Notes under the pieces: generated by a model
What the model was told of the DNA's origin: nothing
Seen by the model: the letters and a program-made list of their open reading frames with translations, nothing else
Databases searched by the model: none
Assembly (NCBI RefSeq): GCF_019048065.1
Contig: NZ_CP077291.1
Location: forward strand, 2,790,001-2,854,000
DNA length: 64,000 bases
Direction of reading: 5' to 3'
Origin: Citrobacter farmeri
GTDB lineage: Bacteria; Pseudomonadota; Gammaproteobacteria; Enterobacterales; Enterobacteriaceae
Shown here: positions 25,831-44,847 of the stretch, piece after piece
Numbering within the stretch: the stretch's first letter is position 1
Layout: each line of letters starts with the position of its first letter
Program-made: the position numbers and the translations under genes

Positions 25831-25842
25831 GGTGAAAACAAT

Positions 25843-26832: not shown

Positions 26833-26868
26833 CTCCTTTGTACCCTACAAAAAATAAAGGTTTAATTT

Positions 26869-28176: not shown

Positions 28177-28180
28177 TACC

Positions 28181-28206
28181 GTCAGGGAGAAATCTCCCTG
28201 ACTTTT
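28181..28206 (+). terminator. Intra-operon hairpin between permease and aldolase genes
   Basis: A perfect 10-bp stem GTCAGGGAGA/TCTCCCTGAC with a two-base loop is followed by TTTT. With only four T residues it may be a partial terminator or an mRNA-stabilising hairpin that lowers aldolase expression relative to the upstream genes. Confidence 0.6.
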
Positions 28207-28220
28207 AACCGAGGTTATCA

Positions 28221-28868
28221 ATGATTAAACATCGCGTTATTCACGCTATAGAACAGACCGGGCTTATTGCAATCGTGCGCGGTATCGAGCCTGAATCTGT
28301 TTTGCCTTTGGCTGAAGCGTTATATGCAGGTGGCGTTGAGGTGATAGAGGTGACGTGCAATTCCACACGTTATCTGGAAAGTATCACCGCGCTAAAAATG
28401 AAAATGGGAGACAAGATGAAGGTGGGCGCAGGTACCGTCATCAATCCCGTTATGGCACAACTGGTGATCGATGCAGGCGCTGATTTCGTGTTGTCGCCCG
28501 ATTTCAATCCCGACGTCGTCTCTATGGTACATGAGAAGCAACGACTGATGATCCCGGCGGTGATGACGCCATCCGAAACCCTCCAGGCCTGTCGCCTGGG
28601 CGTGGATTTACTGAAGCTTTTTCCGGCAAACAGCCTGGGCATCGATTATCTGAAAGAGATCCAGGGGCCGTTGGATAATCTCGCGCTGATTCCGGTAGGC
28701 GGCATCACGCTTGAAAATACGGCAAGCTTTGCGCAAGCAGGCGCGTTTGCTGTCGGCGTCGGAAGCGCACTGACAAACAAACAGTGGGTAAAAGACGGTG
28801 AATGGGGAAAAATCACCCGTCAGGCAGAGGCATTTATCCAGGCTTTTCACGATAACAAGCACCGATAA
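28221..28868 (+). CDS. KDPG/KDPGal aldolase
   Basis: A 215-residue class I aldolase of the Eda/DgoA family. It cleaves 2-keto-3-deoxy-6-phospho sugar acids to pyruvate and glyceraldehyde-3-phosphate. The Schiff-base lysine is Lys132 in DLLKLFPAN; the catalytic glutamate lies in EVIEVTCNSTR and the phosphate-binding loop is GGITLENTASF. It is the logical next step after the DgoK-type kinases. KDPG and KDPGal cannot be told apart from the sequence alone. Confidence 0.9.
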   Translation: MIKHRVIHAIEQTGLIAIVRGIEPESVLPLAEALYAGGVEVIEVTCNSTRYLESITALKMKMGDKMKVGAGTVINPVMAQLVIDAGADFVLSPDFNPDVVSMVHEKQRLMIPAVMTPSETLQACRLGVDLLKLFPANSLGIDYLKEIQGPLDNLALIPVGGITLENTASFAQAGAFAVGVGSALTNKQWVKDGEWGKITRQAEAFIQAFHDNKHR

Positions 28869-30098: not shown

Positions 30099-31601
30099 AT
30101 GCTACATTTATTTGCTGGTCTGGATTTATATACCAGTTTGATGCTTTTACTTGCGCTGGTCTTTGTCCTGTTTTACGAAGCGATTAACGGATTTCACGAT
30201 ACCGCTAATGCGGTTGCGACCGTTATCTATACCCGTGCTATGCAACCCCAGTTGGCGGTGATAATGGCTGCGGTCTTCAACTTTTGTGGCGTTCTGCTCG
30301 GAGGCCTCAGCGTCGCGTATGCCATTGTGCACATGCTACCTACGGATTTACTGCTCAATATGGGCTCGTCGCATGGCCTCGCGATGATTTTTTCTATGTT
30401 ACTGGCGGCGATAATCTGGAACCTGGGAACCTGGTATTTCGGTTTGCCCGCTTCCAGCTCCCATACCCTGATCGGCGCGATTATTGGCATTGGGTTAACC
30501 AACGCGCTGATGACCGGAGCCTCGGTAGTCGACGCGCTAAACATCCCGGCGGTGGGCAATATTTTTGCTTCGCTGCTCGTTTCTCCCGTCGTCGGAATGG
30601 TCATTGCTGGAGGTCTTATCTTCCTGCTACGCCGCTACTGGAGTGGGACGAAAAAACGCGATCGCATCCACCGTCTCCCTGAAGAGCGAAAAAAGAAGGG
30701 GGGAAAAAAGAAACCGCCTTTCTGGACGCGTATTTCCCTTATCTTCTCCGCGGCTGGCGTGGCTTTCTCTCACGGCGCGAATGATGGTCAGAAAGGGATC
30801 GGTCTGGTAATGCTGGTTCTGGTGGGGATCGCACCGGCCGGATTTGTGGTGAACATGAGCGCGTCTGGTTACGAAATCACCCGCACACGCGACGCGGTCA
30901 ACAATCTTGAAGTTTACTTCATGCAGCATCCCGACTCGTTAAAACAGGTCGCCGACAAGACTCAACCGATTGCTCCCCCTCCGACAGCGGATACCACACC
31001 AGCGCCGGAATTTCATTGCCGCCCGGCGAACACAATGGAAGCGCTTGATCGCGTCAAGACATTGTTGCCAGCCAACCTTGAAAGTTACGACACATTAAGC
31101 GTGCCGCAACGCAGTCAGTTGCGACGCATCATGCTCTGCATCTCTGATACGGCAGATAAAGTGGCGAAACTGCCGGATAGCAGCCGGAGCGATGTGCATC
31201 TGCTGAAGAAACTGAAGACCGATATGCTGAGCACGATTGAGTATGCGCCTGTCTGGATAATCATCGCGGTCGCGCTGGCGCTGGGTATGGGAACCATGGT
31301 TGGCTGGCGTCGCGTGGCAACCACTATTGGTGAAAAAATTGGTAAGAAAGGCATGACCTATGCCCAGGGGATGTCGGCGCAGATCACGGCGGCAATCTCA
31401 ATCGGTCTTGCCAGTTATATCGGGATGCCAGTCTCTACTACGCATGTACTCTCTTCTGCCGTTGCAGGCACGATGATTGTCGACGGTGGTGGATTGCAGC
31501 GAAAAACCGTCACCAGCATTGCGATGGCCTGGGTATTTACGTTGCCTGCGGCAATTCTGCTGTCGGGAGGTCTGTACTGGGCTTCCCTGCAATTTCTCTG
31601 A
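30099..31601 (+). CDS. pitA: Low-affinity inorganic phosphate transporter, PitA type
   Basis: A 500-residue permease very close to E. coli PitA/PitB ([45 protein letters not shown]). It has about ten helices and the duplicated phosphate-binding motifs GFHDTANA and [12 protein letters not shown]. It imports metal-phosphate complexes with protons. In E. coli pitA lies elsewhere, so this is either a relocated gene or a second copy; the symbol gives the family, not proven orthology. It stands alone with its own hairpin after it, next to the lipid locus. Confidence 0.88.
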
Positions 31602-31671: not shown

Positions 31672-32406
31672 TTACTGAGGGTATAGACCCGATACAGTTT
31701 GATGACTGGCGCGGTGATGGTAGCCACGGGTAGCCATAAACTCCGTTATTGCTTTTTCCACATCCACCAACACCTCATCCAGCGGTTGATTTGCATTGAT
31801 ATCGACCAGTGGCGCGCCGCCAAAGGTCAGTTGCGGTGTTATCGCTATTTTTTGTGCCAGCGCTTCTCTACGGTGATCGGGTTTACGGGCACAGGCAACA
31901 TCAAGATCAACATTCAGCTTTATCACTAAATCCGGCACGTGGCTGGCCATCCAGCTAAACGCCGCGCGTTCCTGTTCGGCCAACCAGGAAACGAAGCGAC
32001 TTCCGCCTGCATTAGCAGGAAATACGGTGCCATCATAGGCTCCGGGAATTTGCATTTGAGGGTATCGATCGGCTAATACAATTAACCCACGACGTCGACA
32101 CGCCAGCATACGACGAAAGCGCAATAACCGACGGACCACAAAGGACATAATCACTAACGCGGGTACAGGACCAGGTAATTTTTTGGCTGTTTTGACTTTA
32201 TTGCGCTCAATGGTTTTACCTAATGACTTTCCCATTAACGGTAATTTAACCACGGCACGTCCCACATTTCCTGCCTGTTTACCTAAATGCACTTTTTCTG
32301 CCGGACCATATTTCTGCAAACAGTTCAGAAGATGTTCACAGACCGTTGTTTTCCCCGAGCCATCACTGCCGATGACGGCTATTAGCGGAGGCTTTATTGA
32401 CTCCAT
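31672..32406 (-). CDS. Thymidylate-kinase-like P-loop protein, copy A
   Basis: A 244-residue P-loop kinase: Walker [10 protein letters not shown] at 13-21, DRYPQ motif near 112, and a [10 protein letters not shown] lid-like segment near 195. Three paralogues sharing GxDG(S/T)GK(S/T)T, DRYPQ, RKPDH and the [12 protein letters not shown] segment lie side by side (this one on the minus strand). They belong to the thymidylate kinase superfamily but are longer, with a basic insert ([21 protein letters not shown], including a hydrophobic stretch), unlike the housekeeping Tmk. The substrate is unknown; a lipid or sugar head group is inferred from the neighbourhood. The ATG has an AAGGA site. Confidence 0.75.
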
Positions 32407-32577
32407 AAATATTCCTTTAATATAAAATTACCGCCGTGAATAATTTATTATCACAATATCCTCTCGGATATCTCTATTAATACTAAAACGACAATTACCC
32501 ATTGTCACAACTTTGTTGAACAGATATTCTGAGTTTCCATCGGCAATATACAATCATTTATTTAAACTGGATTATTC

Positions 32578-33321
32578 GTGAGTCAATATACTTTTTCTTC
32601 TATTAATCCCCCTCTTACTCGGGTGATTGCTATAGTCGGCTGCGATGGTTCAGGTAAATCAACCCTTGCGGCCAGTCTGGTCTCTCTTCTGGCAACGCAA
32701 CTGCCAACGAAGCGGCTTTATCTCGGACAGTCTTCTGGCCGCATTAGCGAATGGATCGAACATGTTCCCGTCATCGGAGCTTCGGTGAGCCGTTACCTGC
32801 GGACAAAAGCGGCACGTGTCCACCAGCAACCCTCGTCGCCGCCAGGAAATATCACAGCGCTGGTGATCTTCCTGCTCTCCTGCTGGAGAGCGTACAAATT
32901 CCGTAACATGCTGATCCAGAGCCAGCAAGGCACGTTGTTCATCGTTGATCGTTATCCCCAGGCGGAGGTGCCCGGGTTTCGCTTTGACGGTCCACAGCTG
33001 GCCAAAACGGCTGGCGGCAACGGGTGGGTGAGGCTTCTTAAAGCACGTGAACTCCAGTTGTACCAATGGATGGCTTCCTGGCGGCCTCTGCTGCTGATCA
33101 GGCTGGCTATCGATGAAGAGACCGCATTCTCACGTAAACCTGATCACCCCCTGTCCGTTCTTCAAGAAAAGATCGCGGTCACGCCGCATTTAACGTTCAA
33201 CGGGGCGACAATTCTCGAATTGAATGGCCGGGAATCAGCGGAAAAAATCCTTAGCGAGTCATTACGCTCAATTCAGTCCTCTCTTCACGATCACCGGATC
33301 GGGTTTACTCGCCCTTTTTGA
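32578..33321 (+). CDS. Thymidylate-kinase-like P-loop protein, copy B
   Basis: A 247-residue paralogue with Walker A GCDGSGKST at 21-29, FIVDRYPQAEVPGF, and FSRKPDHPL. A hydrophobic stretch (ITALVIFLLSCW) occurs at the same place as in copy A. It starts at GTG 32578, divergently from copy A across a 171-base gap that must hold both promoters. Copy C follows directly. DNA-level similarity is low, so the triplication is not recent. Confidence 0.75.
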   Translation: MSQYTFSSINPPLTRVIAIVGCDGSGKSTLAASLVSLLATQLPTKRLYLGQSSGRISEWIEHVPVIGASVSRYLRTKAARVHQQPSSPPGNITALVIFLLSCWRAYKFRNMLIQSQQGTLFIVDRYPQAEVPGFRFDGPQLAKTAGGNGWVRLLKARELQLYQWMASWRPLLLIRLAIDEETAFSRKPDHPLSVLQEKIAVTPHLTFNGATILELNGRESAEKILSESLRSIQSSLHDHRIGFTRPF

Positions 33322-33332
33322 GACGCAATGAC

Positions 33333-34085
33333 ATGGAAACAGAAAACTTGAGCTCCTTGCACGCGCCATTACCTGAATATATTCCCGGGCTTATTGCCGT
33401 AGTCGGTTGCGATGGCACCGGCAAATCCACGCTGACAACGGATCTGGTTAAAAACCTGCAAAAGAGATGGGTGACCGAGCGCCGCTATTTAGGACTGGTT
33501 TCCGGAGAGGACGGCGACAAAATTAAGCGCCTGCCGCTAATCGGTACATGGCTTGAGCGACGACTGGCGGTTAAATCGTCAAAAACGCAGAGCATGAGTA
33601 CCCGGGCTCCGGCGCTCTGGGCGGCGCTGATTATGTACGGGTTCTCGTTGCGCCGGATGGCTAATTTGCATAAAGCCCGACGACTGGCGCAAAGCGGCGT
33701 TCTGGTGATCAGCGATCGCTACCCTCAGGCCGAAGTTTCCGGCTTTCATTATGACGGGCCCGGCATTGGCGTTGAGCGAGCGACGGGCTGGGTGAAAACG
33801 CGTATGGCGAAACGCGAATCCCGCCTGTATCAGAAAATGGCGTTATACCGCCCCGAGCTCATCATTCGTCTTGATATCGATATTGATACCGCATTTTCCC
33901 GCAAGCCCGACCACGACTACAACGAACTGCGCGACAAAATCGACGTTATGGTGAAAATCACCTACAACGGCTCAAGAATTCTCGATCTGGATTCCAGAGC
34001 GCCCTACCGCGAGGTACTGGAAAAGGCGCTGGCTGCCGCATCCGTTACGGCACGGAATTCTCAGCGCAGAAGAGTGGTGTCATGA
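33333..34085 (+). CDS. Thymidylate-kinase-like P-loop protein, copy C
   Basis: A 250-residue paralogue with Walker A GCDGTGKST at 25-33, VISDRYPQAEVSGF, and FSRKPDHDYNEL. The ATG at 33333 is chosen over a TTG at 33318 that would overlap copy B; the ribosome binding site is weak in either case, suggesting translation coupled to copy B. The C-terminal tail is basic (RNSQRRR). A 117-base gap without a gene separates it from the flippase gene. Confidence 0.75.
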   Translation: METENLSSLHAPLPEYIPGLIAVVGCDGTGKSTLTTDLVKNLQKRWVTERRYLGLVSGEDGDKIKRLPLIGTWLERRLAVKSSKTQSMSTRAPALWAALIMYGFSLRRMANLHKARRLAQSGVLVISDRYPQAEVSGFHYDGPGIGVERATGWVKTRMAKRESRLYQKMALYRPELIIRLDIDIDTAFSRKPDHDYNELRDKIDVMVKITYNGSRILDLDSRAPYREVLEKALAAASVTARNSQRRRVVS

Positions 34086-34202
34086 CACTTCTGCGTCCAC
34101 CGAAGTCGGGGTGCACCCAAAGCGAAAGAATGTCTGAACTCAGGCGCTGTGCAATTTGCCAGCCTGAGATTTTATGCTGGGCGGGTTTGCTCCTGCTGAG
34201 TG

Positions 34203-35570
34203 ATGATTAACCTGCCAGACGAGTTTTCTCCCATGAAAAGGTGGTTTGCCGATGGCGCGTTTCGCACCATCATTCGTAATAGCGCCTATTTAGGCTCCAG
34301 CAATGTGGTGGGCGCCCTGCTCGGTTTACTGGCGCTCTCCTGTGCGGGTAAAGGCGTAACGCCAGCAATGTTTGGCGTGCTGGTCATCATCCAGTCGTAT
34401 ACCAAAGCCATCAGCGATTTTGCCAAATTCCAGACCTGGCAACTGGTCGTTCAATACGGAACCCCCGCGCTGGAAAGCAATAACCTGCCGCAGTTTCGCG
34501 ATGTGATCGCTTTTTCTTTTAGCCTGGATATCGCCAGCGGCGCGGTGGCGATCCTTTGCGGAATGGGATTACTGCCGTTTCTTTCGCATTCGTTAGGTCT
34601 TGATGCAGACAGCTTCTGGCTGGCAATGCTGTACTGCACGCTGATCCCCTCCATGGCGTCATCGACCCCAACGGGGATATTACGGGCGATGAATCGCTTT
34701 GATTTGATCGCCGTCCAGCAGGCGACCAAACCCTTCCTGCGCGCACTTGGCAGCGTTATAGCCTATTTCGCCGACTTCGGATTTGCCGGCTTCGTGGTCG
34801 CCTGGTACGCCTCGAGCCTGATCGGCGGCACGATGTACTGGTGGTTCGCTGCACGAGAACTGCGCCGCCGGAATATTCACGGCGCGCTACGTCTGCGCCT
34901 GTTCGGGTCGGCACGCCGTCTAAAAGACGCATGGAATTTTGTCTGGTCAACCAATGTTGCCCACACTATCTGGTCTGCACGAAACTCGTGCAGCACGGTA
35001 TTAGTAGGAGTCGTTCTTGGCCCTGCCGCCGCCGGGCTGTTCAAAATTGCGATGACCTTTTTCGATGCAACAGGCACGCCGGCGCAGTTGCTCGCCAAAA
35101 GCTTTTATCCCGAAGTGATGCGTTTAGATCCGCGTAGCAAAAAACCATGGCAGTTAGGAATGAAATCGGCACTTCTCGCGGGCGGGATCGGCATCCTCGT
35201 GGCGCTTGTCGTCGTGATTGTCGGTAAGCCTCTCATTTCGCTGGTTTTTGGCGTGAAATACCTACAGGCGTATGACCTCATCCAGATTATGCTTGGCGCA
35301 ATTATTGTATCGATGCTGGGATTTCCCCAGGAATCACTGTTACTGATGTCCGGCAAACAGCGGGCTTTTTTGACTGCGCAGATCATCGCCTCCATCGCCT
35401 ACGTTGTCCTGCTGCCGGGACTGTCGCATCTCTTTGGCGTGGTCGGCGCGGCCTTTGCCTACTTCGCCGGACAATGCCTGGATGTATTGCTTTCACTGAT
35501 CCCGACGCTACACGCTTATCGCCATCGTCGTAGGTTACCCTTTACCGCGGCCAAAGAGAGTCACTCATGA
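34203..35570 (+). CDS. Polysaccharide-type flippase (MOP superfamily, Wzx-like)
   Basis: A 455-residue protein with about twelve to fourteen hydrophobic segments, of the polysaccharide transporter branch of the MOP flippases (NSAYLGSSNVVGALLGLLALSCAGKGVTPAMFG, ...GPAAAGLFKIAMTFFDATGTPAQLLAKSFYPE). Such proteins flip lipid-linked sugars across the inner membrane. In this locus it could flip a glycosylated or phosphorylated lipid. The start is uncertain: GTG 34200, ATG 34203 and ATG 34233 are in frame and none has a strong ribosome binding site. It overlaps the next gene by four bases. Confidence 0.8.
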   Translation: MINLPDEFSPMKRWFADGAFRTIIRNSAYLGSSNVVGALLGLLALSCAGKGVTPAMFGVLVIIQSYTKAISDFAKFQTWQLVVQYGTPALESNNLPQFRDVIAFSFSLDIASGAVAILCGMGLLPFLSHSLGLDADSFWLAMLYCTLIPSMASSTPTGILRAMNRFDLIAVQQATKPFLRALGSVIAYFADFGFAGFVVAWYASSLIGGTMYWWFAARELRRRNIHGALRLRLFGSARRLKDAWNFVWSTNVAHTIWSARNSCSTVLVGVVLGPAAAGLFKIAMTFFDATGTPAQLLAKSFYPEVMRLDPRSKKPWQLGMKSALLAGGIGILVALVVVIVGKPLISLVFGVKYLQAYDLIQIMLGAIIVSMLGFPQESLLLMSGKQRAFLTAQIIASIAYVVLLPGLSHLFGVVGAAFAYFAGQCLDVLLSLIPTLHAYRHRRRLPFTAAKESHS

Positions 35571-36391
35571 CGCACCAAAAATTCTCGCCTGACGTTCTCC
35601 AGCGCCTGTTTGTGGCGGTGGAAGAAGATGACAATGTGGATCGCCATGTCGTACTGCCGGAGCGCGTGCAGATCGACTGCAGCGGGGACAATATCCGCCG
35701 CTGTTATGATTTATGCCTCCAGTTTTGGGAGGAGGGTTTTACCCGGAAGGCGTTACTGCAGCTAGTGCTGAAACAATTACGAGGCAGTAATCTGTCAGAA
35801 GACGAGCGGATACAATACAAATACATTCGTGCGCGCTATAAGCATTTACGCTTTGCTCAGCGACTTTACCGCAAAAACCATCACTCAGGTTGGTTATTCA
35901 GCAAAACTACCGTTATTCTTGGCCATTTCCAGGACGGATTTCGTCACGGAAATAAAACGATTATTGCCACTTATGGAAAGCGATTGCGTGTTTACCTGAG
36001 CCTCCCCATCTCGTGGGTCGTCCAGCTTTCCCTGCGTCACAGCCGGTTAGAGACGGCAAGCGGATTTACGACGTATTGCCAGTCGCAGATGCGCACGCTG
36101 CGAGAACTTATTGCCAGACCGCAGCTGACGGGAAGTGAATTCCACACTATGCGAAAAATCATCAGTCAGCAGGTTTCTTATTACGACACGTTACGTTCTC
36201 TCGATCCGGACAATCACGAGGCTCGCGCTATCTCTCGCTTTCTCGCGGCAATTAACGGTCTGATGGGAGACCGGCATGATGAGATGGTGGCCGATGCGAT
36301 GGAAATGAGAAAACCGTACGATGAGCCCTGCGCACTCGACAGTGATATCCGCGAACGTATAGCGCAATGGCTCGCCCGTTATCCCCTGTAG
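35567..36391 (+). CDS. Unrecognised protein with CHAD-like C-terminal half
   Basis: A 274-residue basic, helical, soluble protein. I do not recognise the family firmly. The C-terminal half (FHTMRKIISQQVSYYDTL...ISRFLAAINGLMGDRHDEMVADAMEM) resembles CHAD domains, which have conserved His/Arg helices and can bind polyphosphate. The N-terminal half (RRCYDLCLQFWEEGFTRKALLQLVLKQLRG) is also Arg/Lys rich. It is joined to the flippase gene by an ATGA overlap and ends 52 bases before the YtfJ-like gene. Confidence 0.55.
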   Translation: MTHQKFSPDVLQRLFVAVEEDDNVDRHVVLPERVQIDCSGDNIRRCYDLCLQFWEEGFTRKALLQLVLKQLRGSNLSEDERIQYKYIRARYKHLRFAQRLYRKNHHSGWLFSKTTVILGHFQDGFRHGNKTIIATYGKRLRVYLSLPISWVVQLSLRHSRLETASGFTTYCQSQMRTLRELIARPQLTGSEFHTMRKIISQQVSYYDTLRSLDPDNHEARAISRFLAAINGLMGDRHDEMVADAMEMRKPYDEPCALDSDIRERIAQWLARYPL

Positions 36392-36443
36392 ATTGCCCGG
36401 CACTGAATCCCCTATCCCGACTCAGCGAAATAAAGGATCTACG

Positions 36444-37004
36444 ATGCTGCTACGTCGATTACTGATGACTTCACTTCTGCTCTCGCCATTGCTGGCGTCA
36501 GCGCATAACTTTATCGATGGCCAGCCGGTTAAGTCGATTTTCATTTCGGATCGCGGCGAGTTGTTACTGGATAATCACGATGCATTTAGCTACCGAAACT
36601 GGAATACCGGTGAACTGGCGGGAAAAGTGCGCATTGTTCAGTATATTGCCGGGCGAAAATCCGCAAAAAAGAAAAACTCAATGCTGATTAAAGCCGTTAA
36701 GGCCGCCAATTTCCCCCTGGACCGCTTTCAACCTACGACCATTGTGAATACCGATGATGTGATCTTTGGCTCTGGTTTTTTCGTCCTTGGCAAAATAGAA
36801 AAAAACAAACGCCGCTACCCGTGGGCACAATTTATCATCGACAGCAGCGGACTGGGCCGCAGAACCTGGCATCTCAATGAGATGAGTTCGACCATTCTGG
36901 TGCTGGATAAAGAAGGCCGCGTTCTGTGGGCAAAAGATGGCGATTTGACGCCAAAAGAGGTTCATCAGGTTATCGCGATGGTACAAAAGATGGTTAATGA
37001 ATAG
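36444..37004 (+). CDS. YtfJ-family exported thioredoxin-like protein
   Basis: A 186-residue protein with a signal peptide ending LLASA, then HNFIDGQPVKSIFISDRGELLL and VRIVQYIAGRKSAKKKNS, as in YtfJ. The fold is thioredoxin-like but lacks redox cysteines. YtfJ proteins are periplasmic and of unknown function. The start at 36444 has an AAAGGA site. Its insertion between the CHAD-like gene and the lptF/lptG pair suggests a periplasmic partner of lipid transport, but this is inference from position only. Confidence 0.8.
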   Translation: MLLRRLLMTSLLLSPLLASAHNFIDGQPVKSIFISDRGELLLDNHDAFSYRNWNTGELAGKVRIVQYIAGRKSAKKKNSMLIKAVKAANFPLDRFQPTTIVNTDDVIFGSGFFVLGKIEKNKRRYPWAQFIIDSSGLGRRTWHLNEMSSTILVLDKEGRVLWAKDGDLTPKEVHQVIAMVQKMVNE

Positions 37005-37015
37005 CCGGGCCCGCG

Positions 37016-38086
37016 ATGAAATTAATTGAACGCTACATCATGACCGGTATTCAACGACTGGTAGCGACCCTCGTGGGTTTCCTTACCTTTATTTTCGCCA
37101 GCTATTGCGCACAGCGCTACCTGACCGAAGCGGCAAACGGTACATTAGCCCTGGGCGTCGTGCTGGACGTTGTCTTCTACAAGGTACTGATTGCGCTGGA
37201 AATGCTGCTCCCCGTCGGATTGTATGTTTCTGTCGGCGTTACCCTCGGTCAAATGTATACGGATTCCGAAATCACGGCGATATCTGCCTCTGGCGCTGCG
37301 CCTTCACGCCTTTATCGCGCAGTGATGATCCTCGCCATTCCCCTGAGTATTCTGGTGGCGTTACTGTCACTGTATGGCCGCCCCTGGGCTTATGCGCAAA
37401 TTTATCAGCTACAGCAACAGTCGCAGTCTGAACTGGATGTTCGTCACCTGCAGGCGAGAAAGTTTAATACCAACAACAATGGACGGATGATCATCGCCCG
37501 GCAGGTTGATCCTCACGCAGCACATCTCAGCGATGTACTGATTTATACCTCCGCAGGCAACAGGACCAGTATCTTCAGGGCGCATAGTGTTGATGTTGTC
37601 GACCCATCGCCGTCGACCCCCTCAGTGATATTGCACACCGGTACCGCCTATGTTCTGGCCCATCAGGGCAGTGATGACAACGAGCAGTTTTTTCGCAATC
37701 TCAAGCTGAACCTGAAACCATTCGACCAGAGCAATGAGGTCAGACGCAAGGCAAAATCCTTCGCAACGCTCTCCCGCTCCGCTGACCCTGCTGATACTGC
37801 CGAGCTGCAATGGCGGGAAAGCCGCGGAATCAGCGCATTATTAATGGCGCTGTTGGCGATCCCGTTAAGCCGTGTCAGACCACGCCAGGGACGATTTTCC
37901 ACGCTGCTCCCGCTCACGCTCTTATTTGTCATCATTTTTTATGGCGGCAATATTTGCCGCTCGCTGGTTGCCAACGGCGCGTTACCCGTGACTCCAGGCC
38001 TGTGGCTGATTCCACTGCTCATGCTGGCTGGCCTGTTTCTTCTGCTGATCCGTGACGGCACTCTGCAATGGAGGATTCGTCAGTGA
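37016..38086 (+). CDS. LptF-family permease, accessory copy
   Basis: A 356-residue protein of the YjgP/YjgQ family: two N-terminal helix pairs, a beta-jellyroll-like periplasmic domain (about 130-260), and three C-terminal helices. LptF and LptG form the inner-membrane channel that extracts lipopolysaccharide. The essential chromosomal pair normally lies beside pepA, so this is an extra copy. The start ATG is 12 bases after the YtfJ-like stop. GMYTDSEITAISASG.(S)R-type sequence near 80-95 (LGQMYTDSEITAISASGAAP) is the LptB-contacting coupling helix. Confidence 0.82.
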   Translation: MKLIERYIMTGIQRLVATLVGFLTFIFASYCAQRYLTEAANGTLALGVVLDVVFYKVLIALEMLLPVGLYVSVGVTLGQMYTDSEITAISASGAAPSRLYRAVMILAIPLSILVALLSLYGRPWAYAQIYQLQQQSQSELDVRHLQARKFNTNNNGRMIIARQVDPHAAHLSDVLIYTSAGNRTSIFRAHSVDVVDPSPSTPSVILHTGTAYVLAHQGSDDNEQFFRNLKLNLKPFDQSNEVRRKAKSFATLSRSADPADTAELQWRESRGISALLMALLAIPLSRVRPRQGRFSTLLPLTLLFVIIFYGGNICRSLVANGALPVTPGLWLIPLLMLAGLFLLLIRDGTLQWRIRQ

Positions 38087-39150
38087 GTATTTTCAGCCAC
38101 TACTTGATACGCAATCTGTTTTTGGGATTTGCGGCGGCTGCGGGATTATTGCTTCCCCTGTTTACCACCTTCAACCTCATTAACGAACTCGATGATGTGG
38201 CCCCTGGCGGATATCGCTGGACGCAGGCCGTGATGGTCGTGTTGATGACATTACCCAGAACCCTTATCGACCTTGGCCCGTTTATCGCGCTGCTCGGCGG
38301 TATCGTCGGGCTGGGTCAGTTGTCGAAAAACGGCGAATTAACCGCAATACGCATCACCGGCTATTCGATTTTCAGAATAGCCATGGTGACGTTAAGCGCA
38401 GGACTGATGCTAACCGTGGCCCTGGGTGCCATTGATGAATGGGTTGCCTCGCCATTGCAACAGCAGGCATTGCAGATAAAAACGCGCTATACCCGTCAGG
38501 ATGCGGCAGGAAACATTTTGTGGGCCCGGCGCAGCAATGAGTTTGTGACGGTAAAATCGCTGGACGAACATCACCAGCCATCAGGTATTGAGCTGTTTTA
38601 CTATCGGGAAGACCGCACTCTGCAACGGTATATTTATGCGCAAACGGCGACCATTTCAGATACTGGAATCTGGCAGCTTGCGGGGGTAAACCAAAAAGAG
38701 TGGGCCAACGGTAAAGAAACAACGGAGACGAAAGAGAAGCTGGCATGGTCATCTCTCTTTGCAGACATGAGCCTGCAAGAGCTCACCCTGCCCGGCAGCA
38801 GCTTTTCAGTGAAGCAACTCATGCATTATATTTCCTATCTGAAGAACACAGGTCAACCCAGCCTCGAATTTACACTGGCGTTATGGCAAAAGTTAGGACA
38901 TCCGCTTTTGATCCTGGCGATGATTTTACTGTCCATCCCTTTCACTTTTAGCGTCCCCCGCGCCCCTGGACTGGGAAGCCGCTTAGCCGTCGGCGTGGTC
39001 GTTGGATTATTGACTTACGTCTGCGATCAGATCATCGTCAACCTCGGGTTGCTGTATTCTCTTAACATGCCGATGACGACGCTCGCACCGCCGGCCTTGC
39101 TCATGACGGTAGCGTTAATCCTGGTTTTCCGATTCGATCGCCAGCCCTGA
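38083..39150 (+). CDS. LptG-family permease, accessory copy
   Basis: A 355-residue protein with the same layout as its partner: helices at both ends, periplasmic domain in the middle, and the coupling-helix segment LGQLSKNGELTAIRITGYS. The chosen start is a GTG at 38083 that overlaps the lptF-type stop by four bases and has GGAGG eight bases upstream; an ATG at 38068 would place that site inside the gene. No LptB-like ATPase or LptA/C-like gene is in this locus, so the pair may use the housekeeping LptB or another ATPase. Confidence 0.82.
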   Translation: MSIFSHYLIRNLFLGFAAAAGLLLPLFTTFNLINELDDVAPGGYRWTQAVMVVLMTLPRTLIDLGPFIALLGGIVGLGQLSKNGELTAIRITGYSIFRIAMVTLSAGLMLTVALGAIDEWVASPLQQQALQIKTRYTRQDAAGNILWARRSNEFVTVKSLDEHHQPSGIELFYYREDRTLQRYIYAQTATISDTGIWQLAGVNQKEWANGKETTETKEKLAWSSLFADMSLQELTLPGSSFSVKQLMHYISYLKNTGQPSLEFTLALWQKLGHPLLILAMILLSIPFTFSVPRAPGLGSRLAVGVVVGLLTYVCDQIIVNLGLLYSLNMPMTTLAPPALLMTVALILVFRFDRQP

Positions 39151-39192
39151 TATCACATCATCAAACAGAATAATGGGTTGGACGTTCAGAAA

Positions 39193-39227
39193 CCGCAGCG
39201 TTTATTCTCAGAGAGTAACCGCTGCGG
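39193..39227. terminator. Hairpin between the convergent lipid operons
   Basis: CCGCAGCG/CGCTGCGG (8 bp) with a 19-base interior that can pair further. It lies between the lptG-type gene and the convergent synthase gene, and TTT follows on the minus strand. Confidence 0.55.
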
Positions 39228-39237
39228 GCAGAGCCTG

Positions 39238-40410
39238 TTATTTTTTGAGCTGCGCAAATGCCTGAATAATTGCATCAATTTGCTCATGGGTATGCGCAGC
39301 ATTAACGCTGCAACGCAGTAGCGTGATTCCGGCAGGTGCTGCCGGTGGCAAAATAAGATTCACATAAACACCTGCGGCAATCAGTTCGCGCCAGACGCGT
39401 AACCCTTCTTCTTTCGCGCCGATAATGACTGGCACCACGGGGCTGATGTGCGAACTCAGCTCATAACCCAGTTTTTCAAGCCCTTCATATAATCGCACTG
39501 CGTTATCCCACAGCTTTTGACGCAACTCCGGTTGCGCAGCGATCGTTTTTAACGCGGAGCGAACGGTCGCAATGCTCGACGGAGAAGGCGATGCGGTAAA
39601 GATATAAGGGCGACTGGCGTAACGCAGAACCTCCATGCCCTGAGCACCCACGGCAAAACCGCCAATCGAAGCCAGGCTCTTACTAAAGGTTCCCACAATG
39701 ATGTCGACGTCCTGCTCCACCCCGGTCGCTTCCGCCAGTCCTCGCCCCGTAGCCCCCATCACGCCAAAGGAGTGCGCTTCATCAACGATCAAAAAACCGC
39801 CCAGCCGTTTTTTGATATCGACAATCTCGACCAGTGGCGCTATGTCGCCCAGCATACTGTAAATGCCTTCGACAATGATGATGGCATCTTTGGCGCGTTC
39901 GCCGAGACGCACCATACGCCGCTCCAGATCTTTCGCATCGTTATGGCGAAAACGGATAATTTCTGCGCCCCCTAACGCGCAGGCATCATAAATACTGGCG
40001 TGGCTGTCAGCATCCAGTAATACCACGGCATTATGATTGGCAAGCGTGCTGATTATCCCTAAATTGGCCGTGTAGCCTGTGGAGAAAACGATCGCAGACG
40101 GTCGGCCAAAAAACTCGGCTATCTCCTGTTCTAAAGCTAAATGCGGTCCATAGCTTCCGTTCGCCATCCGCGAACCGGTCGTTCCCGTCCCCTGGTTAGC
40201 TAATGCCGCCTGCCCCTCAGCAATCGCCTGCACATTAAAGGTGAGCCCCAGGTAATTATTGGTACCCGCCAGAATAACCTTTTGGCTACCAATCCGCCCT
40301 TCCGTTGCGGAAAACACTTCATCTATACAAGTGCCAAATGGGTTAATCCCCGTCATTCGAAATTGTTCCCGCTCGCTGGCGAGGCGCGAGAATTTATCAT
40401 AAAGACGCAT
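39238..40410 (-). CDS. Alpha-oxoamine synthase, serine palmitoyltransferase-like
   Basis: A 390-residue PLP enzyme of the BioF/KBL/SPT family, which joins an amino acid to an acyl thioester with loss of CO2. Key residues are visible: HAS (His137, stacks on PLP), DEAHSFG (210-216), and the PLP lysine Lys244 in TFSKSLASIGG. SRMANGSYGPHLALE differs from the TR.I.GT form of BioF and Kbl and fits SPT-type enzymes. It overlaps the acyl carrier protein gene by 14 bases, as expected for an enzyme that uses that carrier. BioF-like or 2-amino-3-ketobutyrate ligase activity is less likely in this context. Confidence 0.85.
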   Translation of the reverse strand: MRLYDKFSRLASEREQFRMTGINPFGTCIDEVFSATEGRIGSQKVILAGTNNYLGLTFNVQAIAEGQAALANQGTGTTGSRMANGSYGPHLALEQEIAEFFGRPSAIVFSTGYTANLGIISTLANHNAVVLLDADSHASIYDACALGGAEIIRFRHNDAKDLERRMVRLGERAKDAIIIVEGIYSMLGDIAPLVEIVDIKKRLGGFLIVDEAHSFGVMGATGRGLAEATGVEQDVDIIVGTFSKSLASIGGFAVGAQGMEVLRYASRPYIFTASPSPSSIATVRSALKTIAAQPELRQKLWDNAVRLYEGLEKLGYELSSHISPVVPVIIGAKEEGLRVWRELIAAGVYVNLILPPAAPAGITLLRCSVNAAHTHEQIDAIIQAFAQLKK

Positions 40411-40657
40411 TGAGACTCTCCAGACAGGGGATTAACGCTTCCATTAATTGAGCCGGCGTTTTTACATCCAACAAAATGTTAATAGGGATAGAAATATCGA
40501 ATTTATCTTCCAACAACATTAATAGATCCATAACGTGAATTGATTCCAGTCCAAGATCATTAACCAGGTCGCTATCAGGATGAATATCCACACCGCTTTC
40601 GACCATCCCCTGTAAACAGTGAAGAGTGTAATCCATTACTTCTTTATGATTTATCAT
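40397..40657 (-). CDS. Dedicated acyl carrier protein (AcpR-like)
   Basis: An 86-residue acidic carrier protein with the 4'-phosphopantetheine site DLGLESIHVMDLL (Ser39), where the housekeeping AcpP has GADSLD. It is predicted to carry the acyl chain loaded by the acyl-AMP ligase of the same operon to the synthase. The open frame extends to 40690 from a TTG; ATG codons lie at 40669 and 40657. The last gives the usual ACP length, but ribosome binding sites are weak for all. The gene lies between the synthase and the reductase-like gene. Confidence 0.85.
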   Translation of the reverse strand: MINHKEVMDYTLHCLQGMVESGVDIHPDSDLVNDLGLESIHVMDLLMLLEDKFDISIPINILLDVKTPAQLMEALIPCLESLNASL

Positions 40658-40686
40658 AGAAAATAACATACCTGTAATCTGAATAA

Positions 40687-41601
40687 TCAAAATAACCCCT
40701 GGAGTAACGCATGTTCCAGGCTAACCCTGGGGGACCAATTTATTTTCTCGCACAGACATTGATTATTTGCCGACCAGTCAGAATGAATTAACTCACAAAC
40801 CTTACTCCGGGTTAACATCGGCTCTTTTCCGGCAAACCGACTGATTAACGTACTCGCGTCGGCAAGCAATACGAGCAACGGCAGCGGAATGTTCACGGTC
40901 CGAACCGGCCTGTTACGCACCGCAGCCGCAATGTCCTGAAGACGTTGCCAGTTGTAGCCACCCGCAACGCCATCGCACAATTCGTAAGGATAAACTGGCG
41001 TCCGATCAGACATGAGCCATTGACTGACGGCCTGAGCCAGATCACTTACATGTAAAAATGACAATCGGGTATCAGCCGCACCAAATCGCGGAAGATAACC
41101 GCGCAGCATTGTGCGAAACAACGGGGTTAACTCTTTATCACCGGGTCCATACACCGCCGTAGGGCGAAAAATACCCAGCGTAATTCCGCCGGTCATCGCC
41201 GTAAGCCGTTGTTCAGCGACATACTTGGAATTTGCATACCAGGAGAGTTCAGGGTGACGTGCCGCAAGCGACGAGATGAACAGAAAGCGCTGACAACTGC
41301 CGCTCTCTTTTGCGGCCTGCATCAGTCGCTGGCTACCTTCAACATTACACCGGGTGAAGATCGCTTCTTTGTGTCCCCGAACCTGCCCAGCACAGTGGAC
41401 GACATGCTCCGCCCCAGCGACCAGTTGCGCCAGCGTTTCGCTCTCTTCCAGTGAACCCCGGATCCAGACCAGATTATTGCGCGCGTCCTGACGAAGCGTT
41501 CGGGTTAACGCCCGAACGGAAAAACCGCGGGAAAGCAGATCCTCAATGATATGTTTCCCGATAAAACCGGTCCCTCCGGTCACCGCAATCGTCGTACTCA
41601 T
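40687..41601 (-). CDS. Extended SDR / NAD-dependent epimerase family (CerR-like)
   Basis: A 304-residue extended short-chain dehydrogenase: Rossmann motif GGTGFIG at 9-15, substrate Ser in FISSLAA, and YANSK active-site Tyr-Lys. Relatives include 3-beta-hydroxysteroid dehydrogenase-like and sugar epimerase enzymes. In the Caulobacter ceramide locus an enzyme of this type (CerR) reduces the 3-keto group of the sphingoid intermediate; the gene order here (synthase, carrier, SDR, ligase) supports the same role. It overlaps the ligase gene by four bases (ATGA). Confidence 0.82.
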   Translation of the reverse strand: MSTTIAVTGGTGFIGKHIIEDLLSRGFSVRALTRTLRQDARNNLVWIRGSLEESETLAQLVAGAEHVVHCAGQVRGHKEAIFTRCNVEGSQRLMQAAKESGSCQRFLFISSLAARHPELSWYANSKYVAEQRLTAMTGGITLGIFRPTAVYGPGDKELTPLFRTMLRGYLPRFGAADTRLSFLHVSDLAQAVSQWLMSDRTPVYPYELCDGVAGGYNWQRLQDIAAAVRNRPVRTVNIPLPLLVLLADASTLISRFAGKEPMLTRSKVCELIHSDWSANNQCLCEKINWSPRVSLEHALLQGLF

Positions 41602-43340
41602 TGCACATAATCCGTCACGGGGCTCGATGAATTTAGCGACTCAGGAAAGATATTCAGATAACGTTTTTTCGCTTCCGCACGCGCCGGTTTCCCGGAGGAT
41701 GTCCGCGGAATACTGTGCGGCGGCAATAGCTCGATACTAACAGAAACGCCAAACTCACTTTGTATCCGGGCTGTCAGACTATGAACGATCTGCGCACGGC
41801 GTTCTTCACAACTGACCCGACACTGAATCTGTAAAATAATCCGCTCCTGGGACGTCACAAACGCTATCGCATCGCCAGAGTGAATTTCCGGTTCCTGTTC
41901 CGCAATATACTCAATATCCTGGGGCCAGATATTCCGACCACGAATGATGATCAGATCTTTTATACGTCCCGTCACATACAGGCAGCCATCCAACAAATAG
42001 CCCAGATCCCCGGTATCCATCCACCCTGTTGACTGGATTTCCTTTTGTGAAACCGGATCCTGAAAGTAACCGTTCATCAAGCTCGGACCTGATATACAGA
42101 TATGGCCCACTTCTCGTTCAGGAAGCGGGTTCCCGCTTTCGCCACGAATTTCAATACGGTGACCCGGAAGCGCTTTGCCGCAATTCACAAAGGTAGAAAT
42201 CGCCCGGGTGTACTTCGTTGGCGCAACCGCTTTACCCTGGTATTCGAGTATGTCGCGATCGACGTCACTCACCAGGAGACCCGACGCCTCGTCGGAAAAA
42301 CTCACCGCAAGCGCATTTTCAGCCAGCCCGTAACACGGCATGAAGGCTTTGCTGTCAAATCCCGCGCGCTGGAAACATTCGCCAAACTGATTGAGTTGCC
42401 CGGCAGAAATAGGTTCTGCTCCCACACCGGCCACCCGCCAGCAGGAGAGATCCAACCCGGCAAGTTCGTTATCATTGATGCGACGCAAGCATAAGTCGTA
42501 GCCGAAAGGCGGTGCCACGGAAACAGTGCATCGGTTCTTACTGATTAATTTCAGCCACTGTAGCGGGCGCATGGCGAAATCCTGCGTGCGCAGATAATCC
42601 ACAGATAGCTGAGTCGCCACAGGCGTTAGCAGAAATCCCACCAGTCCCATGTCGTGATAAAAGGGCAACCAGGAAACGCAGCGGTCGCTGTCGCGTAATT
42701 TGATACCATCATGGCTAATCACACGAAGATTCGACATCACTTCACGGTGGGTAATAATGACACCGCGTGGGAAACGCGTACTGCCAGAAGTGTACTGGAG
42801 ATAGGCAATATCGTCCGGAGACGGCAGTGGCAGTTCGATATCCTTTTCCGGTAACGTATTAAATTGTGCGTTGCTCAGAATATGGATTGCCGCCCCATGA
42901 TCGTTGACAACATTGATCAGTGACAACCATTGGTCGCTGCTGATAATAACCGCAGGCTGACAACTGGCTAACAGGCTCAGCAACTTAGCAGAATAAGAAT
43001 CGCGTTGCCCAACGCCCATCGGAATGGCCAGCGGTACGGCCACTAAGCCTGCATACTGACAGGCAAAAAAGGCTTCGACAAAACCTACGCTGGTTTCCGC
43101 AATCAGCGCGACACGATCGCCCTTATTGAGATTCAGCGAAAGCAATCGCCGCGCCCCGGCTTTTGCCCGGTCTTTTAGCTGGCGATACGTCAGTACAGCT
43201 TCAGGCTGGTTGCGTCGATCATAAAAATTCATTCCTGCATTTCCCAAAGCGGCATAGTCCAGAGCTTCCGCCAGGGTTGAAAAGTCAGCATAACGCATAG
43301 GAAGAGAATGCGTTGATATTCTATTGGACATATGCACCAT
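41598..43340 (-). CDS. Fatty-acyl-AMP ligase / acyl-ACP synthetase (AasR-like)
   Basis: A 580-residue adenylate-forming enzyme. Motifs: YTSGSTRFPRG (183-193, phosphate loop), PFYHDMGLVG (typical of fatty-acyl-AMP ligases), GWMDTGDLGYLLDG, and GRIKDLIIIRGRNIWPQDIE. It should activate a fatty acid as acyl-AMP and load it onto the acyl carrier protein encoded two genes downstream. It is the first gene of a four-gene operon with ATGA overlap to the next gene. The first ATG (43340) and one three codons later are both possible; neither has a clear ribosome binding site. Confidence 0.85.
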   Translation of the reverse strand: MVHMSNRISTHSLPMRYADFSTLAEALDYAALGNAGMNFYDRRNQPEAVLTYRQLKDRAKAGARRLLSLNLNKGDRVALIAETSVGFVEAFFACQYAGLVAVPLAIPMGVGQRDSYSAKLLSLLASCQPAVIISSDQWLSLINVVNDHGAAIHILSNAQFNTLPEKDIELPLPSPDDIAYLQYTSGSTRFPRGVIITHREVMSNLRVISHDGIKLRDSDRCVSWLPFYHDMGLVGFLLTPVATQLSVDYLRTQDFAMRPLQWLKLISKNRCTVSVAPPFGYDLCLRRINDNELAGLDLSCWRVAGVGAEPISAGQLNQFGECFQRAGFDSKAFMPCYGLAENALAVSFSDEASGLLVSDVDRDILEYQGKAVAPTKYTRAISTFVNCGKALPGHRIEIRGESGNPLPEREVGHICISGPSLMNGYFQDPVSQKEIQSTGWMDTGDLGYLLDGCLYVTGRIKDLIIIRGRNIWPQDIEYIAEQEPEIHSGDAIAFVTSQERIILQIQCRVSCEERRAQIVHSLTARIQSEFGVSVSIELLPPHSIPRTSSGKPARAEAKKRYLNIFPESLNSSSPVTDYVQ

Positions 43341-43722
43341 GAAAATGTTTGAATGTAAAATCGCTGGATATACAAAACGAATAATCGGCAGAGGATAATA
43401 TAAATTAAACAGTTATTAAACAGCACCTCTTTTTCTGAAAAACAGCCATCACCATTACAAATACTTTCCAGCATTTCAATATTGACGGAAATGATATTCT
43501 TTACACATATATTTCATCTCCTTTCCAGAATAAACAATTATTATTCTTTTCCATAATCATCACTATTTAACGTTTCATCTTCCCGCTTTATCGACAAGCG
43601 CATAAAGTGATAAAAGAGATAAACGGGGATTCAGTAGTTTATTTCGTTTTCGGATAACCATGTTACCTCATGGTAATAAATGTAATTATGTTTATTTCTG
43701 CACTTTTTATTTAGGGCTGTTT
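43341..43722. other. AT-rich divergent intergenic region of the lipid locus
   Basis: About 380 bases between the divergent ligase operon and the acyltransferase gene, clearly AT-richer than the coding sequence. It must carry both promoters. A TTGACG at 43482-43487 is a possible -35 for the plus strand, but no matching -10 at good spacing stands out. No gene is seen; the 21 codons open before the acyltransferase start are not supported by a ribosome binding site. Confidence 0.5.
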
Positions 43723-44847
43723 ATGATTCAGATACAAAAAGTCATGAATAAACATGACCTCAACGCCTTTATCTCTTTCCCTTCTTCACTCTATTGCGCT
43801 GACGACTGTTGGATAGAACCTTTGCATTTTGAACGCGCAGAGCATCTGTCGGCAAAAAATCCAGGGTCCGAACACATCTACTGGCAGGCATGGATCGCAA
43901 AAAAAGCGGGACGGGTTGTCGGGCGAATCACCGCGCAGATTGATACCCTGCATCGAAAACGGTACGGTGACGATACCGGGCATTTTGGCACGATCGACGC
44001 CATCGACGATCCTGAGGTCTTTAGCGCGCTGTTTGCTGCCGCCGAAACCTGGTTGAAATCCGTCGGGGCGCGAAAGATCACTGGCCCTTTTAGCCTGAAC
44101 ATTAACCAGGAAAGTGGTCTGCTGGTTGAGGGTTTCGGGACGCCCCCCTGCGCACTCATGCCACACGGTAAGGCCTATTACGGCTCCCGGGTCGAACAAC
44201 TTGGCTATACAAAAGGGATCGATCTGCTGGCCTACTGGATGCAGCGAACCGATTTATGTTTCTCGCCATCGCTGCTCAAACTGATGGATCAGGTGCGTAA
44301 AAAGGTGACTATCCGCAGCATTAATCACAAGCAGTTCAGTGAGGAAATGCAGATTCTGCGAGAAATTTTTAACTCCGGCTGGCAGCATAACTGGGGGTTT
44401 GTCCCTTTCACGGAACATGAATTCGCCACCATGGGCGAGCAACTCAAATTTCTTGTCCCGGACGATATGATTCACATTGCGGAGATAGATTCCGTCCCCT
44501 GTGCATTTATTGTTGGCCTGCCAAATATTAATGAGGCTATCACCGATCTCAACGGTCGACTGTTGCCGTTCGGTTGGGCCAGACTGCTCTGGCGACTGAA
44601 AGTGAGCGGCGTCCGTACCGCACGGGTGCCGCTGATGGGGGTGCGTCAGGAATATCAATTCAGTCGTATCGGCCCGATCATGGCTTTGCTGTTAATTGAA
44701 GCGTTACGCGAACCGTTTGCCAGACACCATATCGACGCGTTAGAGATGTCCTGGATTCTGGAATCCAATAGCGGGATGCGTGCGATCCTGGAACGCATCG
44801 GCGGGGTTGCCTACAAGCGCTATCGTCTTTACGAAAAACAAATCTGA
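43723..44847 (+). CDS. GNAT-type acyltransferase, probable bacterial ceramide synthase (bCerS-like)
   Basis: A 374-residue soluble protein with a split GNAT pattern: an N-terminal domain (WQAWIAKKAGRVVGRITAQID, HFGTIDAIDDPEVFSALFAAAETWL, GARKITGPFSLNINQESGLLVEGF) and a C-terminal domain (IAEIDSVPCAFIVGLPNINEAITDLNGRLLPFG..., ALEMSWILESNSGMRAILERIGG). Proteins of this type, often annotated as N-acetyltransferase, are found with SPT-like enzymes, and the Caulobacter member is the ceramide synthase that N-acylates the sphingoid base. The start at 43723 has an AGGG site. It faces the ligase operon across a shared promoter region, so the five ceramide functions are complete. Confidence 0.78.
   Translation: MIQIQKVMNKHDLNAFISFPSSLYCADDCWIEPLHFERAEHLSAKNPGSEHIYWQAWIAKKAGRVVGRITAQIDTLHRKRYGDDTGHFGTIDAIDDPEVFSALFAAAETWLKSVGARKITGPFSLNINQESGLLVEGFGTPPCALMPHGKAYYGSRVEQLGYTKGIDLLAYWMQRTDLCFSPSLLKLMDQVRKKVTIRSINHKQFSEEMQILREIFNSGWQHNWGFVPFTEHEFATMGEQLKFLVPDDMIHIAEIDSVPCAFIVGLPNINEAITDLNGRLLPFGWARLLWRLKVSGVRTARVPLMGVRQEYQFSRIGPIMALLLIEALREPFARHHIDALEMSWILESNSGMRAILERIGGVAYKRYRLYEKQI

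Follow-up and report, generated by a model that had tools for sequence, protein, structure and literature searches.

Described ceramide loci and the island of Citrobacter farmeri

Genes for ceramide synthesis have been described in Caulobacter crescentus and in Escherichia coli BL21, and both systems are closely related in content to the locus considered here, a 13-gene island at positions 31672-44847 of a 64,000-nucleotide stretch of the Citrobacter farmeri genome (NZ_CP077291.1, positions 2,790,001 to 2,854,000; hereafter the window). In C. crescentus, the ceramide genes, a second LptF/LptG pair and a potential flippase likewise lie in one region, CC_1152-CC_1168, and a transport role is proposed, rather than shown, for LptC2/F2/G2 and CC_1166 (PMC11324152). 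The ceramide kinase of this organism is CpgB, a DAGK/LCB5-type enzyme (PMC10331486), and CC_1161/1159/1158/1153/1152 are assigned to phosphoglycerate-type head groups. E. coli B was listed as a carrier of serine palmitoyltransferase (SPT) and the five genes were stated to be clustered in BL21, where SPT, AcpR and AasR were assayed; the E. coli B SPT orthologue forms 3-oxo-sphinganine from serine and acyl-AcpR (PMC9386255). In the same report, ECD_02852 was the proposed reductase, ECD_02850 (yghO) was the proposed N-acyltransferase, and YghO was named the counterpart of CC_1154 (PMC9386255, Fig. 9 legend).

The window holds the same five genes as E. coli BL21(DE3) ECD_02850-02854 (yghO, aasR, epi, acpR, spt). 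A preliminary description of the interval 39238-44847 had read them as a ceramide set new to enterobacteria. Protein families, a tree and the published pairing of YghO with CC_1154 support the gene identities and the reading as a ceramide set, but the claim of novelty is wrong at the gene level because the BL21 cluster was already in print (PMC9386255). The interval was also too narrow, and missed kinases, a flippase, a CHAD-fold protein and an LptF/LptG pair; eight genes of the island lie beyond it. Compared with E. coli 24AR0376, the window genes are 71-86% identical and stand in the same order, and the kinase, flippase, YtfJ and LptF/G genes that flank them are the same. The surroundings suggest a sphingolipid that is decorated and exported, and we consider it likely that the 13 genes together make, decorate and export such a lipid. 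The five-gene core is already published, and what looks new is its extended surroundings (the kinases, the CHAD-fold protein, YghQ, ytfJ2 and LptF2/G2). The available text of PMC9386255 on BL21 treats five genes, and the kinases, the CHAD-like protein and LptF2/G2 are not met in it; no account of the extended island was found in the open-licence PMC literature, a scope outside which figures and supplements fall, and Fig. 9 of PMC9386255 may draw the neighbours.

The ceramide core

The five core open reading frames (ORFs) are all intact at the positions given in the preliminary description. The spt gene (39238..40410, minus strand) encodes a serine palmitoyltransferase (3-oxo-sphinganine synthase) that reaches 606.8 bits against NCBIfam NF047599, the serine palmitoyltransferase model (cut-off 500), and the BioF, Kbl and ALAS models all remained under their own cut-offs. 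The pyridoxal phosphate lysine is residue 244, in GTFSKS, in agreement with the SPT-like alpha-oxoamine synthase described earlier. In the PDB the best matches are SPTs (E 1e-113 to 1e-116; best BioF/Kbl-type chain 1e-60), and in the tree the protein groups with PDB 2x8u, a solved and characterised SPT (support 100/99), apart from two paralogues encoded in the same genome, which by eye resemble Kbl and BioF; long branches are flagged in this tree, which excludes two very long proteins, the second copy of the window sequence (L032) and eight rows that were near-duplicates. The possibility that the synthase is BioF or Kbl was rejected by the family models, the PDB ranking and the tree. The protein is 86% identical to the product of the E. 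coli gene, for which the RefSeq name is spt, serine palmitoyltransferase.

Directly upstream of spt, acpR (40397..40657, minus strand) encodes a distinct, specialised acyl carrier protein (ACP) with a PF00550 match and its serine in LGLES, which fits the LGLESI-type site noted before. The ORF is open to a TTG at 40690, and the ATG at 40657 is preferred; because the ORFs of relatives suggest this ATG, an overlap of acpR with cerR is improbable, and a 29-base gap would separate the two. The tight overlaps attributed to the operon hold for spt/acpR (14 bases, 40397-40410) and for cerR/aasR (ATGA, 41598-41601), and probably not for acpR/cerR. Within the same operon, cerR (40687..41601, minus strand) encodes an extended short-chain dehydrogenase/reductase (PF01370), as had been recognised, and is the candidate ceramide / 3-oxo-sphinganine reductase gene; CerR reached no cut-off in the NCBIfam scan and shares 71% identity with the product of the gene at this position in E. 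coli, which is the epi position in PMC9386255. The product of aasR (41598..43340, minus strand), a fatty acyl-AMP ligase / acyl-AcpR synthetase, scores 852 bits against NF006624 (fatty acyl-AMP ligase; cut-off 600) and is 79% identical to its E. coli equivalent, so the ligase assignment is upheld.

The yghO gene (43723..44847, plus strand) diverges from aasR, as reported, across an AT-rich region of 382 bp (43341..43722, 30.6% GC). Pfam and NCBIfam scans of YghO gave no family at a meaningful E-value, and the single sequence found nothing convincing in the PDB. Its AlphaFold model (mean pLDDT 85.5) matched tandem GNATs (best E 1.9e-13, TM 0.61), which agrees with the two-lobed acyltransferase first proposed and points to a bCerS-type tandem GNAT N-acyltransferase. 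Relatives of yghO were collected from 26 loci at 45-81% identity. As judged from their sequences, the five genes are a ceramide-making set.

An alpha-oxoamine synthase combined with an ACP and an acyl-AMP ligase is also familiar as a start module of natural-product pathways. The product of the operon could be a secreted natural product of the alpha-oxoamine type, or 3-oxo-sphinganine left unreduced as a signal, and not a membrane ceramide, and the main compound obtained with the E. coli SPT does migrate like 3-oxo-sphinganine (PMC9386255). This explanation is considered very improbable: SPT exceeds the equivalog cut-off of NF047599, yghO lies near spt in three genomes (G058, G247 and G1079) that were found via SPT or the kinases and not via YghO, and in BL21 an SPT with Caulobacter AcpR/AasR also yielded sphinganine- and ceramide-like compounds (PMC9386255).

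Genes surrounding the core

Three genes, yghT (31672..32406, minus strand), yghS (32578..33321, plus strand) and yghR (33318..34085, plus strand), encode thymidylate-kinase-like P-loop proteins, of which YghS and YghT are named dTMP kinase in RefSeq. Their scores are 19-29 bits against TIGR00041 (29.2 for YghR; cut-off 83.25) and 14-23 against PF02223 (cut-off 27), below the level that defines thymidylate kinases, and the Walker A, DR[YF]PQ and RKPDH motifs are conserved. A profile built from the three families placed thymidylate kinases first in the PDB (E 1.8e-5, mainly across the P-loop), and the YghS sequence alone retrieved nothing convincing there. A dTMP kinase function for the three was rejected, since the scores lie far under the cut-off and the proteins track SPT in the genomes examined. 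Whereas Caulobacter uses the DAGK/LCB5-type kinase, the island carries these proteins together with the CHAD-fold protein.

The CHAD-fold protein (35567..36391, plus strand; 274 aa) was recognised by its structure model (pLDDT 92.8), which has structural matches to the CHAD fold of two four-helix bundles. The window member has no Pfam match, PF05235 included; among 21 scanned members of the family, five match PF05235 (best E 0.001), and the family profile had 0 hits in the PDB. An invariant HxxRK stands amid many conserved basic residues in this family. CHAD domains bind polyphosphate via conserved basic residues (PMC6537752), and the window protein, as modelled, has both the fold and such residues in common with CHAD-domain proteins, although it lacks the Pfam match. 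Named relatives of YghR and of the CHAD-like protein include Citrobacter.

The remaining four genes are all on the plus strand. yghQ (34200..35570) encodes a MOP-superfamily flippase (PF01943/PF13440) that co-occurs with SPT, and ytfJ2 (36393..37004) a YtfJ-family paralogue of YtfJ (TIGR01626 over cut-off). lptF2 (37016..38086) and lptG2 (38068..39150) encode a second LptF and LptG, distinct from the housekeeping pair found elsewhere in the genome: LptF2 scores 302 bits against TIGR04407 (cut-off 230) and LptG2 273 bits against TIGR04408 (cut-off 240). In the LptF/G tree, built without row G324_F2, they group with Nitrosomonas LptF/G (97/96 and 99/100), with long branches flagged, and this placement rejected the idea that they arose by recent duplication of the enterobacterial pair. 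Caulobacter differs in having LptC2. None of the island ORFs in the window is broken, and promoter and terminator scans gave only a mild excess over shuffles.

Co-occurrence with serine palmitoyltransferase

A survey of 392 sampled genomes of the window's GTDB family detected SPT (E 1e-120) in 38, across 18 of 154 genera, with 37 over the model cut-off; three other listed genomes of the window's genus have none at this E-value. One genome contig (G500:C1) has two SPT genes over cut-off, about 1.86 Mb apart. The 38 were compared with 35 chosen SPT-negative genomes of the family (two listings, 12 + 23; not random), giving a set of 73. Four LptF/LptG proteins are present in every SPT-positive genome and two in every SPT-negative one. 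Proteins of the YghR/S/T type gave three matches in 37 of the 38 SPT-positive genomes and four pieces in the other, the CHAD-like protein was single in 36 and double in two, and YghQ (E 1e-60) occurred in all 38, being split in two in G732 and G734; the three types were absent from all 35 SPT-negative genomes. Fisher's p for co-occurrence is 1e-21 on the assumption of independent genomes, which they are not, and YtfJ was not among the genes counted.

The genes also remain close to each other. In 35 of the 38, SPT, YghR and the CHAD-like gene all fall inside a 15-kb span; the remaining three have some of them on separate contigs. The genes that surround the core in the window also flank spt in loci of Escherichia, Shimwellia, Pseudocitrobacter, Citrobacter youngae and Pluralibacter, and in Serratia, Klebsiella indica and Cedecea they stay together in another order. 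The compared loci were cut at 10 kb, so that far genes are not always in view, and the second LptF/G pairs of the Serratia and Cedecea genomes come from a separate genome search.

These patterns bear on the alternative that the five genes alone make a sphingolipid and the other eight belong to an unrelated surface polysaccharide or lipopolysaccharide (LPS) modification that shares the locus. YghQ is indeed a MOP/polysaccharide-type flippase, LptF2/G2 score as LPS exporters, and GT4 glycosyltransferases adjoin the kinases and the CHAD-like gene in two distant relatives (L093 and L097). Against this stand the co-occurrence with SPT in the 73 genomes, the cohesion of the genes through rearrangement, and the co-occurrence of kinases and CHAD-like gene with SPT even where they are not adjacent, and we regard the alternative as unlikely. 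In another locus (L094), a PAP2 phosphatase stands between the kinases and the CHAD-like gene; the neighbours in these three loci hint at other head-group chemistry there.

Beyond the family, two further SPT-positive genomes of the order have three kinases, a distant YghQ and yghO around spt; the CHAD-like gene is present there in G247 and was not detected there in G058. Among 398 sampled Pseudomonadota genomes, the kinase profile (threshold 1e-8) matched nine. Six matches were strong (best E 1e-66 or lower), and all six genomes have SPT over cut-off; the other three matched more weakly (best E 1e-33 to 1e-17), in genomes with no SPT over cut-off. Four of the six strong genomes, from one family, carry two kinases and the CHAD-like gene together, far from spt.

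Plasmid-borne and Nitrosomonas loci

The whole island is present on Klebsiella michiganensis plasmid NZ_CP106839 (typed conjugative) and on Rahnella plasmid CP042359 (typed non-mobilizable), and is probably able to move between species as a unit. Both plasmids have a DgkA-type gene beside yghO, identified by Pfam in Klebsiella and by the record annotation only in Rahnella. Pseudomonas veronii plasmid LT599585 carries the spt operon, yghO, LptF2/G2, four kinases, the CHAD-like gene and a DAGK_cat gene. In plasmid pPNP1 of Pseudomonas sp. JS425, the spt operon and LptF2/G2 are accompanied by a DAGK_cat gene and an NTP-transferase gene, and the Nitrosomonas yghO locus L022 combines LptF/G with DAGK_cat, CDP-alcohol phosphotransferase-type and NTP-transferase genes. 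The Nitrosomonas loci and pPNP1 resemble the island in having yghO and LptF/G close together, pPNP1 also with the spt operon, but differ in their DAGK_cat and NTP-transferase genes; YghR/S/T and the CHAD-like gene were not detected in the stretches of them examined. From these gene contents, the head-group part varies and the ceramide core is kept. The idea that the YghR/S/T cassette is a plain swap for a DAGK-type ceramide kinase is weakened by the P. veronii plasmid, which carries both, and by the DgkA-type genes of the Klebsiella and Rahnella plasmids.

The record of a 354-kb E. coli PN43 'plasmid' (NZ_MG591698, L115) holds a chromosomal hyb-pitB-island-glc segment, by integration or by mis-assembly, and was set aside as evidence of mobility on account of these chromosomal glc and hyb flanks.

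Distribution in Escherichia coli and the K-12 remnant

In complete E. coli genomes, a query of the window's aasR-yghO segment matched 4524 of 5426, with at least 80% of it held in 4031. With E. coli queries, at least 80% of spt-yghO was held in 4022 of the 5426 and at least 80% of yghT-lptG2 in 4054; the two halves were counted separately, and for both nearly all matches have at least 95% identity. K-12 MG1655 has only a remnant (L040, 6738-10103), in which an IS5 copy separates yghO from a yghQ that is truncated at its C-terminus, and the intervening genes are no longer annotated. This would explain yghO, yghR, yghS and yghT as orphan y-genes in K-12. The yghS gene of K-12 is H-NS-associated and rises 3.1-fold on slyA over-expression (PMC5797941). 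Because of this association and response, and of the AT-rich divergent region, the locus is probably quiet in ordinary laboratory culture.

The large K-12 deletion with IS5 at its join could also be taken as a sign that the locus is degenerating cargo that no longer has a function in most of the genomes carrying it. A decaying copy is recognisable in G734 (L114, 1024-15476), where spt, yghQ, lptG2 and yghO are split into two to three pieces over different frames and the other genes are recognisable; 354 of the 392 family genomes, including the three of the same genus, are without an SPT match at E 1e-120. Such a view is nevertheless held to be highly unlikely, given that about three quarters of the E. 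coli genomes keep each half at nearly uniform high identity, that 37 of the 38 SPT-positive family genomes exceed the SPT cut-off, and that the window island has no broken gene.

Proposed pathway and significance

The dihydroceramide steps are drawn from published enzymes and orthology. AasR would load a fatty acid onto AcpR, and SPT would condense the acyl-AcpR with serine to 3-oxo-sphinganine, both activities being in print for the E. coli B orthologues; by analogy with Caulobacter, reduction by CerR and N-acylation by YghO would then yield dihydroceramide. Co-occurrence and family membership suggest that YghR/S/T, as three related kinases, phosphorylate the lipid head group, and the CHAD-fold protein may bind the phosphate-rich head group or substrate. 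YghQ would flip the lipid across the inner membrane, in line with the flippase role proposed in Caulobacter, and LptF2/G2 could, as proposed for their Caulobacter namesakes, feed it to the outer membrane with the housekeeping LptB, LptC and LptA.

E. coli DgkA phosphorylates ceramide in vitro. Action of YghR/S/T after ceramide-1-phosphate is attractive because enzymes resembling nucleoside monophosphate kinases would phosphorylate a phosphate and because a lipid kinase gene accompanies these kinases on three plasmids. As a speculative and rather doubtful extension, YghR/S/T might lengthen ceramide-1-phosphate made by a DgkA- or DAGK-type enzyme to the di- or triphosphate, the CHAD-fold protein might recognise the phosphoanhydride chain, and YghQ and LptF2/G2 might export the product. 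If so, a private oligophosphate sphingolipid of the outer membrane, lost from K-12, would be encoded in about three quarters of complete E. coli genomes.

Several observations weigh against an island that makes, decorates and exports a sphingolipid. BL21 with SPT alone, or with Caulobacter AcpR/AasR alone, had a thin-layer chromatography profile like that of empty vectors, and 3-oxo-sphinganine-like compounds, with sphinganine- and ceramide-like spots, appeared when SPT and Caulobacter AcpR/AasR were combined (PMC9386255); as product is described only for the combination, the native AcpR/AasR supply of BL21 was insufficient there. No account of a sphingolipid from native enterobacterial genes alone was found in the open-licence PMC literature. 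Regarding decoration, the likeness of YghR/S/T to thymidylate kinase is weak and lies mostly at the P-loop, a deletion has left K-12 with yghR/S/T but no spt, and none of the three was detected in the available stretches of pPNP1 and of an alphaproteobacterium (L026), both SPT-positive. Regarding export, family scans of the island proteins named no LptC, and just one LptF/G pair is present in three other SPT-positive genomes of the order (G013, G058 and G247). A single pair, presumably serving LPS, is also all that each of the three searched Nitrosomonas genomes has, so that 'sphingolipid-specific' cannot be read from the LptF/G tree.

K-12 serves as the reference strain for the membrane lipids of Gram-negative bacteria, yet sphingolipid genes of which it has lost the middle part are carried by about three quarters of complete E. 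coli genomes. A working island would mean that the lipids listed for a major gut genus are incomplete, that enterobacteria have a second Lpt branch, for a lipid other than LPS, and that the head-group kinase cassette is of a new kind.

Genes bordering the island

A PitA/PitB-type phosphate transporter gene (window 30099-31601) adjoins yghT here and in E. coli, and in two Pluralibacter loci a gene of this type is found on the opposite side, that of yghO. Near the island, at 24820-28868 of the window, are two adjacent sugar-kinase-like ORFs, a transporter-like ORF and a KDPG-type aldolase; the sugar-kinase-like ORFs were identified by eye and had no NCBIfam match at 1e-20. Galactonate genes likewise lie beside the island copy on the Rahnella plasmid.

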